A stretch of DNA of 52,150 bases from Treponema sp. GTDB lineage: Bacteria > Spirochaetota > Spirochaetia > Treponematales > Breznakiellaceae. The stretch lies in NCBI GenBank assembly GCA_031254315.1, contig JAIRUQ010000098.1, positions 1 through 52,150 of the forward strand, written 5' to 3'. Each line of letters begins with the position of its first letter. The stretch's first letter is position 1. Made by a program: the position numbers and the translations under genes. Of this stretch, positions 42,854 to 45,292 are shown in pieces. The notes under the pieces were generated by a model. That model was not told the origin of the DNA. It saw only the letters and a program-made list of their open reading frames with translations, and searched no databases.

Positions 42854-44353
42854 TTATTCTTTTTTCCCATAAATAGCGGCAAAATCAGTTACATATAACG
42901 GATAATTTACCACTCCATCATAAGCGCCCTGACGTAAGGCTGTAAAATATAAAATATCCTGTATATAAACGCTTGCAGAGTTCGCGATAATGACCCTCTG
43001 AGCTTCCTTGTAAAGCGCGATACGTCTTTCGTTATTGGTCTCTGTAAGTACAGCATTGTATATTCTGTCAAAATCGGCGCTGTTAAAATTGATAAAATTA
43101 CTGACGTTATCTGATTGGTAACGGGTAAGGAAACTGCGTGGTGAGACAGTTGGGCTATCCAAAGAAATTATTGTCGCCTGATACTGCCGTCCGAAGTATA
43201 CTTCAGAAAGCCATGTTGACCAGTCAACCAGTTTGATAGTTGCGTCAACATCGATCTTTTCAAGCTGGTCTACAATTACCTGCGCTGTATCAATATGCAT
43301 CGCGTAATTTGAGGGGACTGTAATTTCAAAGATAAGTTTGTTCCGTTCATTAAATCCGGCTTGAGAAAGCAGTGTACGCGCCATATCGGGATTATACTGG
43401 CTCTCGCCAGTTGAATATGAATTTTCATAATAAACGGATAATCCCGGAATAATCGGGCTTCCCGACGGCTCTCCAACGCCAAAAAACGCCGCGTCAATAA
43501 TTTCCTGAATGTTCACGGCAAAATTAATAGCTCTGCGCACACGAATATCATTAAACGGAGGGGAAGCGTTGTTAAGCGCAAGTAATTGCACTGCCGAAGA
43601 ACTGTTATTAAAAATATCAAATTGTCTGTGGCTAAGCTGTTCTGCCATCGCTCCTGTTATGCTCGCTCCGTCAATACTGCCGCCGCGAAAAGCGACTAAC
43701 AGAGCGTCATAATTAGAAAAGAACACAATGGTTACCTTCTCCAAATGCGGCAAACCGTCCTGCCGGTAATTATCAAATTTCTTTAACACAAGGTTGCTTT
43801 GCTTTGTATAACTTTCAACAAAGAATGGTCCCGTTCCTATTACATCCTTTTTGCGATCCGCGATTTCTCTTTTAACAATTCCAATTGTCAGGTAGGGAAG
43901 GAATTCCGGGTCTATAGATTTCAGAAGTATTCTTATTTGATTTTCACCCTGAATTGTTACTTCACTAATATTATCCAAGCCGGGAAAACCGGAAGCGATC
44001 GCGGTATCAAGGCTGAACTTGATATCGGCAGGAGTTACGACAGAACCGTCGTGGAATAACACGCCTTCTCTAATCGTAAAATTATAAGAGAGACCGCTCT
44101 GTTCAACTGTCCATGAGGAGGCGATACATGGAAGCATTGTTCCGTCAATGCCGGGTTTTACAAGTCCTTCAAAAACATTAAAGAGGATGCTTCTGCCGTC
44201 AGCGGTATTATCGGAGCTAAGAGGGTCAAGCGTCGTGGGCTCGCTCGCGAAACCGTAGCGCAGTTGTGAATTGTCGGCGTTTTTCCGCGTACAGGACGGA
44301 AAAATTGACAGCGCCATGACCGCGAGCAAAAAATAAATAACTGTCTTTTTCAT
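42854..44353 (-). CDS. family 5 peptide/nickel-type substrate-binding lipoprotein
   Basis: 499 residues from the ATG at 44353. A start at 44407 is rejected because those codons fall in repeat DNA and push the signal peptide inward. The lipobox is FPSC (Cys21). SEPTTLDPLSSDNTADGRS, IREGVLFHDGSVVTPADIKF and NDIRVRRAINFAVN are family 5 features. It captures a peptide, metal chelate or similar solute for the importer encoded downstream. There is no Shine-Dalgarno; a strong promoter ends six bases before the ATG. Confidence 0.9.
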   Translation of the reverse strand: MKKTVIYFLLAVMALSIFPSCTRKNADNSQLRYGFASEPTTLDPLSSDNTADGRSILFNVFEGLVKPGIDGTMLPCIASSWTVEQSGLSYNFTIREGVLFHDGSVVTPADIKFSLDTAIASGFPGLDNISEVTIQGENQIRILLKSIDPEFLPYLTIGIVKREIADRKKDVIGTGPFFVESYTKQSNLVLKKFDNYRQDGLPHLEKVTIVFFSNYDALLVAFRGGSIDGASITGAMAEQLSHRQFDIFNNSSSAVQLLALNNASPPFNDIRVRRAINFAVNIQEIIDAAFFGVGEPSGSPIIPGLSVYYENSYSTGESQYNPDMARTLLSQAGFNERNKLIFEITVPSNYAMHIDTAQVIVDQLEKIDVDATIKLVDWSTWLSEVYFGRQYQATIISLDSPTVSPRSFLTRYQSDNVSNFINFNSADFDRIYNAVLTETNNERRIALYKEAQRVIIANSASVYIQDILYFTALRQGAYDGVVNYPLYVTDFAAIYGKKE

Positions 44354-44359
44354 AAGGGA

Positions 44360-44388
44360 ATTGTACGGGAAAAAGCGAGGATAATCAA
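44360..44388 (-). promoter_or_regulatory. promoter of the peptide-type importer operon
   Basis: Read on the minus strand: TTGATT (44383-44388), 17 bp spacer, TACAAT (44360-44365), six bases, then ATG at 44353. The layout implies a leaderless mRNA. It lies beside the repeat array that starts at 44393. Confidence 0.65.
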
Positions 44389-44392
44389 GGTA

Positions 44393-44830
44393 CGCCCAAG
44401 TATGCACCGCGTCAAGCGGTGTGGATAAATTATGCTACACGGCGTGGCGCTAAATAAACGTAACTAAGATGAAAAGGGCGCGAAGGCTTTAGCCTGAGCA
44501 GTGCACGCCCAGTAAGGAGAGGATAATTTAACCACGGAGAACACGGAGGAAGAAGGGAACAAACGCCCAAGTATGCACGCGGAGCGTGAGGATGAATAAG
44601 GTAATAACGGCGTGGCGCTAAATAAACGTAACTAAGATGAAAAGGGCGCGAAGGCTTTAGCCTGAGCAGTGCTCGCCCAAGTATGCACAGCGTTAAGCTG
44701 TGTAGATGAATAAGGTTTCACTGCGTGGCGCTAAATAAACGTAACTAAGATGAAAAGGGCGCGAAGGCTTTAGCCTGAGTAGCGCGCCGCCCAAGTATGC
44801 ACAGCACCTAAAAATTTAGGTGCTGGGCGG
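44393..44830. repeat. tandem array of hairpin-bearing structured repeats
   Basis: Units begin with CGCCCA(A)GTA at 44393, 44506, 44564, 44674 and 44788; three are full (about 110-114 bp), 44506 is shortened and 44788 is a 3'-truncated copy. Full units share GGATGAATAA-like and GGCGTGGCGCTAAATAAACG sequence, then TAACTAAGATGAAAAGGGCG and GAAGGCTTTAGCCTGAG. Directly after the first motif each unit has a hairpin with a different stem: CACCGC/GCGGTG, CACGC/GCGTG, CACAGC/GCTGTG, CAGCACCTAAA/TTTAGGTGCTG. GGCTTTAGCC adds a second small hairpin. No ORF is conserved. The array fills most of the gap between the importer operon and the hydG unit. Confidence 0.85.
44530..44549. repeat. ACCACGGAG-type dispersed repeat inside the array
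   Basis: AACCACGGAGAACACGGAGG matches 2314-2333 and resembles copies at 27871 and 46862. It sits in the shortened unit of the tandem array, which suggests insertion into that unit. Confidence 0.6.
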
Positions 44831-44931
44831 ATGAATAATTTAGCATGGTGGGCAGGAAACCGGCAGGAGGTACACGGAAACCAATTGTCTTTTGAAGAAG
44901 GGAAATTTACAAAACAATAATTCTTTAACAT

Positions 44932-44968: not shown

Positions 44969-45292
44969 TTATCCAACAATAGTTATATCTTTATTATTAT
45001 ATTCAAAAGACTCTGGTTCCACATAATCTTTATCTAACATACTCATTTCTATAAATAAATCTTTATTACAAGATATTATTAGTTTATTTTTTATTGTAAA
45101 TATATCATTAACAGCTTTATTTATAAATAGATTTTCATTTTCATTTATCATTGTTTTATTATATAAATTTAGAATACCATTATCATTAAAATATATTTGC
45201 ATATAATCATGTATATAATTTATTTTTGTAATTGTTTTACCATAAATATTTTTATATAATAAATTTCTTCTTTTAAAAATAAATCCAAGCAT
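44969..45292 (-). CDS. AT-rich hypothetical protein downstream of hydG
   Basis: 107 residues, no signal peptide or membrane helix, rich in Asn, Ile and Lys. AGGAG precedes the ATG and it starts 12 bases after the hydG stop, so it is in the same unit. No family recognised. Composition is much more AT-rich than hydG, so it may be a late addition to the unit. Confidence 0.5.
   Translation of the reverse strand: MLGFIFKRRNLLYKNIYGKTITKINYIHDYMQIYFNDNGILNLYNKTMINENENLFINKAVNDIFTIKNKLIISCNKDLFIEMSMLDKDYVEPESFEYNNKDITIVG

Follow-up and report, generated by a model that had tools for sequence, protein, structure and literature searches.

The window, a 52,150-nucleotide stretch of a Treponema sp. contig, carries four copies of one hairpin module, termed here module A, and three of another, module B, all on the + strand and all within the spacer between two − strand genes. 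The motif CGCCCAAGTATGCA is found exactly at 44393, 44564, 44674 and 44788, which are the real unit starts, spaced by 171, 110 and 114 bp; when up to two mismatches are allowed, 0.27 matches to this motif are expected by chance. The region is organized as follows:

42854..44353, − strand: left neighbour, an oppA-like lipoprotein gene annotated by eye (ORF 42854..44407), with a probable start near 44353, ~40 bp from the array
44393..44445, + strand: module A of unit 1, hairpin CACCGC/GCGGTG at 44404-44422
44446..44504, + strand: module B of unit 1, with a short 3' end that terminates GCAGTGC
44505..44563, + strand: spacer that includes a CGCCCA remnant (44506) and, at 44530-44549, AACCACGGAGAACACGGAGG, one copy of a different repeat
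44564..44613, + strand: module A of unit 2, hairpin CACGC/GCGTG
44614..44673, + strand: module B of unit 2
44674..44726, + strand: module A of unit 3, hairpin CACAGC/GCTGTG
44727..44788, + strand: module B of unit 3, with the full 3' end GCGCGCC
44788..44852, + strand: module A without a module B (unit 4), its hairpin enlarged to 11 bp (CAGCACCTAAA/TTTAGGTGCTG, 44802-44825)
44969..45292, − strand: right neighbour, a 107-aa ORF whose 3' end lies ~116 bp beyond the array

The initial annotation described a tandem array of ~110 bp units with five starts. Tandem repetition holds for the last three starts (TRF 44564-44805, period 113, 2.2 copies) but not for the first, from which the next is spaced by 171 bp, and four of the five starts are retained, position 44506 being a short CGCCCA piece that follows module B. 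The long segments reported as nearly identical include a constant segment that is identical in three units (44444, 44612, 44725), whereas the supposedly unchanged flanks hold for module B inside the array and no further. All four stems quoted as different yet paired were recovered, including the 11 bp stem of unit 4, whose 24-nt hairpin sequence occurs at a single place among the 298 fetched loci (covered by both L001 and L008). No tRNA or tmRNA genes were found in the window. Since the array is antisense to both of its neighbours, it is most likely a parked cluster at this site, rather than a regulator.

To place the array in context, we turned to the rest of the genome, in which a BLAST-type search identified 60 matching pieces. 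A covariance model, built from 70 full-length copies selected out of 144 pieces from this and related genomes, produced 112 matches at E <= 0.01 across 3.1 Mb, with an element length of ~115 bp. Far from unique or hypervariable, the array is four copies of this dispersed element, and an ordinary cluster of its family. BLAST-type matches were found in 15 of the 39 genomes of the first set, which includes the own genome, and all 15 are of its own genus. The covariance model under stricter filters, run on a sample of the taxonomic family, detected the element in 41 of 118 genomes, representing 25 of 56 genera (both counts include the own genome). The DNA pattern of the B hairpin matched 55 stretches, and the named ones are all Treponema sp. 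or Spirochaetaceae bacterium MAGs, with bin names that we take to denote termite-gut samples. Rfam matched nothing across the array up to E 5, and on 20 family loci its overlaps with the element were limited to neighbouring tRNA edges and two permuted-tmRNA hits below threshold. No mention of the element was found in the titles and abstract openings of open-licence papers. These data establish a real family of modular hairpin elements that is absent from Rfam 15.

Each element comprises the two modules, and the orders AB, AAB and ABB recur with similar joints. Module A follows the plan CGCC-spacer-hairpin-GATGAATAA...GGCG, in which a 4-bp closing helix joins the first four bases to an internal 4-base guide (columns 53-56 of alignment A1) around a variable inner hairpin; module B follows the plan GGCGC...hairpin-GCGCC, with a GGC/GCC closure and a TTTA-loop hairpin inside. 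In 48 copies from the own genome, distances in A do not correlate with those in B (Mantel r 0.05, p 0.24), whereas odd and even columns correlate at 0.44 within A and 0.64 within B. Finer segment-level tests are likewise mostly near zero, so the Mantel test alone cannot separate reassortment from star-like divergence, which may account for part of the lack of correlation between modules. The argument is therefore carried by cases of identical A beside different B, such as module A of unit 2, which is identical (A distance 0.0) to that of a copy elsewhere in the genome (L002:1613-1724) with a different B. Where identical B modules stand next to differing stems, modules appear to have been reassorted. 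The suggestion that a mobile element diversifies its stem locally is not supported, given this sharing of the unit-2 A with a copy elsewhere and the lack of correlation between the A and B halves. A hypervariable stem was likewise rejected, as hairpin alleles are shared between copies.

The stems are kept paired across the family. In alignment A1, which holds the 70 copies, 96.9% of cells in five helices are paired, compared to at most 54.1% in slid controls, and 12 of the 22 pairs have changed on both sides. The covariation score is 0.224 against 0.118 in shuffles, and none of 500 shuffles scored as high; the rows are related copies, so these shuffle figures are not probabilities. Helices 2, 4 and 5 hold 10 of the 12 double-changed pairs, and helices 1 and 3 contain one each (5 cells and 1 cell, respectively), although helix 1 is far more variable in alignment A2, which was fitted to the structure. 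Both hairpins show strong covariation, and the closing helices show some as well. The earlier proposal that change on both sides with pairing kept reflects selection on structure is supported across the 70 copies: paired substitutions are in excess, and the stems of other genomic copies do pair. When folded singly, units 1-3 are not unusual (z -1.42, +1.15 and -0.67) and unit 4 is (z -3.24). On the + strand, G.U cells exceed A.C cells in A1 by 86 to 15, or 40 to 15 without the basal pair, which is G-U or G-C in 67 of the 70 copies; in A2 without the basal pair the counts are 32 to 20, which is not significant (p 0.13). As the excess is found in A1 but is not significant in A2, RNA-level selection on the element is possible.

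Placement relative to genes bears on the same question. In the first set, from own and related genomes, codirectional gene ends fall between -40 and +10 of the element 5' end in 21 of 55 cases, compared to 3 of 40 in the mirror orientation (p 0.0007). Of 40 further own copies, 17 of 37 have a codirectional ORF stop within -60 to +70, compared to 3 of 38 for the mirror arrangement (Fisher p 0.0002), and in 40 copies from other genera the preference is not significant (10/36 vs 7/34, p 0.58). Where an ORF stop falls inside an own copy, 13 of 15 use one frame (tally; p 3e-5), and the ORFs that enter the element end GCC-CAA-TAA in some copies and GAT-GAA-TAA in others. Individual genes illustrate both arrangements: most RibF orthologues have only a few residues beyond MLG, the point at which the own gene continues into the element, and the own HisF gene stops 3 bp before it. 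In 30 RibF and 30 HisF fetched loci, the model matches a gene end at the two own loci only; the match in L158 of the RibF set lies ~250 bp off the 5' side of the gene rather than at its end, as judged from the unturned locus. Similarly, the own locus is the only match among 30 fetched tmRNA loci, one of which has no upstream side. At the tested sites, the element is therefore present in the own genome and absent from the same gene ends of related genomes.

These observations raise the alternative that the element is a functional 3'-UTR RNA, co-transcribed and folding beside the stop codon to tune translation termination or mRNA decay, with its stems kept by RNA-level selection. Codirectional stop-codon placement in the own genome, the G.U excess on the + strand of A1 and its G-U/G-C basal pair all fit, and passages of PMC12306157 report ribosome stalling by E. 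coli REPs that lie no more than 15 nt from a stop codon. The same passages, however, place just 446 of the 4,072 E. coli REPs predicted by the RepRanger authors within 15 nt of a stop (PMC12306157). Moreover, the G.U/A.C asymmetry outside the basal pair loses significance in A2, no codirectional ORF stop lies near 20 of the 37 further own copies, units 1-3 show no unusual stability when folded singly, and copies in the window and beside tRNA and tmRNA genes are antisense to their neighbours. We consider a 3'-UTR role doubtful.

Contacts with tRNA and tmRNA genes are a further recurrent feature. The 202 element-bearing loci contain 29 such genes, and at 10 distinct loci (11 contact rows, of which L194 and L273 are one locus) the 5' end of the tRNA or tmRNA lies -8 to +2 nt from the element 5' end on the opposite strand, although these loci are not a random sample, many being the best match of their genome. 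Six of the ten involve tRNA-Leu, one tRNA-Phe and three tmRNA, including that of the own genome; several of the tRNA-Leu loci may be one old inherited insertion. One tRNA-Asn touches the element in another arrangement. By eye, no consistent -10 was seen for a tRNA promoter on the antisense strand of the element. At the own tmRNA (L009, L386; C98), an array of element units lies directly at the mature 5' end, and the tmRNA promoter must therefore lie beyond or inside the units.

The four bases preceding YRGCGC in mid-element are the reverse complement of the four at the element 5' end, referred to here as the arm, and they differ between loci. From 290 entries, we set aside 7 without a flank, 56 without the motif and 8 duplicates, leaving 219. 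Among copies from other genomes whose guide is not GGCG, guide and arm match in 93 of 110, compared to 32 on average and at most 46 in 2000 shuffles (92 of 109 minus one further near-duplicate), and a matching arm exists for 26 of the 29 guide types. Own-genome copies with an unusual guide match poorly (4/19; 58 of 2000 shuffles reached as high). In some cases the arm lies within host sequence. Its bases fall inside the tRNA-Leu gene at L204, L212, L214, L215 and L216, while L203, also at a tRNA-Leu, fails the 4-base rule; L205 was left out of this test. In a sugar-permease gene (element-bearing L338 and L110), the arm forms codons of the GRR ending. Three close element-free orthologues (L349-L351) also end GRR, in other codons, and further orthologues end GSR, GKR, GKS or other tails, or stop earlier; the arm thus fits the amino acids of the host but not the exact bases of the orthologues.

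In the own genome, CGCC follows ACCACA in 13 of 73 left flanks, and the uninserted repeat AACCACGGAGGACACGGAG lacks CGCC at that point; here the element seems to bring its CGCC arm along when it enters the AACCAC repeat. Arms also recur between the units of arrays and are repeated at some unit junctions, which counts against guide insertion, as simple insertion 3' of a target would not give this recurrence. The 73 left and 65 right flanks share no motif; target site duplications were judged by eye only. The AACCAC...CACGGAGNNCACGGAG repeat is itself a second dispersed sequence, with 51 pattern matches in the own genome; it is seen at 44530-44549 of the window, and the 13 left flanks ending ACCACA all meet it at one exact point. 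A third dispersed sequence, resembling GATCAACGAATTACGCGAATTAAAACGAATGAA, also carries elements (flanks of L015, L032, L037 and L040; by eye).

Another account would be an inert repeat spread solely by homologous recombination and unequal exchange, in which pairing is kept as the copies are young and descend from few paired founders. Shared hairpin alleles, module reassortment and the occurrence of arrays beside single copies are in keeping with this. Double changes in 12 of 22 pairs, together with matching arms for 26 of 29 guide types, are nevertheless hard to obtain without selection on pairing, and the element is present or absent at unlinked single sites. We therefore regard an inert repeat as improbable.

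We also searched for a gene that could mobilise the element. One Y1 transposase gene was found in the own genome (L059:1255-1960), flanked by its own palindrome GGTGACAGTCACC, and this gene and palindrome are likely a separate REP/RAYT pair. A Y1 gene is present in 11 of 20 element-bearing genomes; G013, G068, G095 and G070 (66-97% complete) gave no Y1 match and hold 8-27 element matches. Single-sequence nhmmer found no element match at 20 Y1 loci, and the element model (E < 0.001) matched near 3 of 47 (L433, L435 and L410), the L433 match lying outside the conserved block common to the G100 transposase copies. At the Y1 loci of G100 (L415-L435), a divergent Y1 transposase sits in a block of ~860 bp that is present in multiple copies. 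RAYT/IS200 was rejected as the mobiliser in view of the palindromes that the own Y1 gene has for itself, the presence of Y1 genes in just 11 of 20 element-bearing genomes, the element matches near just 3 of 47 Y1 loci, and the place of the L433 match outside the shared block. Palindromes, mosaic clusters and stop-codon contacts of the kind described in passages of PMC3733652 would suit a REP/BIME proper, mobilised by RAYT (TnpA_REP). Against this identity, no GTAG or CGTC tag is conserved at the hairpin end in alignment A1, the sole Y1 gene found in the own genome carries a palindrome of its own, and four genomes hold elements with no Y1 match; we judge it very improbable.

The plan of the element nevertheless has precedents. 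The initial annotation knew of no named class with such a plan, which stands for Rfam but not for BOX and REP/BIME, whose modular or mosaic plans are comparable. In IS608 the left guide sits 5' of the hairpin, unlike the guide of this element, which lies 3' of it. In integron attC sites, the R'/R'' core boxes pair end to end; here, by eye, the 3' GCGCGCC does not pair with the 5' GCCCAA. MITE-type terminal inverted repeats of the whole element are also absent: 5' CGCCCAA and 3' GCGCGCC are not mutual inverted repeats, and each module closes on itself. BOX of Streptococcus pneumoniae is described in passages of PMC3049150 as a small dispersed composite repeat, boxA-boxBn-boxC, with a varying number of modules and a predicted fold if transcribed, for which mobilisation by ISSpn2 has been proposed from terminal repeats. 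The element is similarly small, dispersed and modular, but has just two modules (AB, AAB, ABB) in place of A-Bn-C, no known IS of this sort, and a variable end arm that pairs with an internal guide. With REP/BIME, for which passages of PMC3733652 describe subfamilies with alternative complementary stems, G-T pairing, clusters and repeats that supply the stop codon of flanking ORFs, it shares the alternative stems, G-T pairing, clusters and stop-codon contacts; it differs in its 115 bp, two-module unit (REPs are 20-40 bp) and in having no link to a RAYT gene. Rickettsia palindromic elements and ERIC, which are small mobile repeats, can invade coding frames and alter proteins according to passages of PMC2229807, whereas the additions seen here are C-terminal, mostly in one frame and end at an internal stop. 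In IS608, with a hairpin near each end, a left-flank tetranucleotide pairs with an internal guide that directs target choice, as set out in passages of PMC5934647, and our element likewise has a hairpin near each end and a 5' tetranucleotide that pairs with an internal guide. Unlike IS200/IS605 members, however, it has no tnpA inside and no linked HUH Y1 transposase, and its arms recur within arrays. We conclude that the element, most likely mobile, belongs to the BOX/BIME kind as a variant set apart by the unusual, variable pairing of its end.

Our analysis favours, at a probability of roughly 55%, a small non-autonomous mobile element of Treponema relatives, with two hairpin modules, a BOX/BIME-like plan and IS608-like guide/target pairing. 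A mobile element was one of three guesses made initially, and fits best among them. Such an element would insert in the form of single-stranded hairpin DNA, on the 3' side of a short stretch of host sequence able to pair with its guide, perhaps helped in trans by a putative transposase. It would persist best at gene boundaries, where its cost may be low and it would often bring a stop codon, and when co-transcribed it might form a 3'-UTR hairpin, by analogy with REPs near stop codons. A more ambitious reading, which we offer tentatively, is of a naturally re-programming mobile hairpin. The 4-base guide used at every insertion would be complementary to host sequence at the boundary of a gene, tRNA or tmRNA, with guides that have diversified across the family. 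If true, nature would here offer a parallel to the engineered retargeting of IS608, but with no Y1 transposase linked to the element.

If the mobile-element reading is right, the family would represent a structured repeat that marks gene boundaries across a whole family of mostly uncultured spirochaetes, and would provide natural data on the evolution of guide/target pairing, with the tRNA and tmRNA contacts making the guide idea testable from sequence alone.
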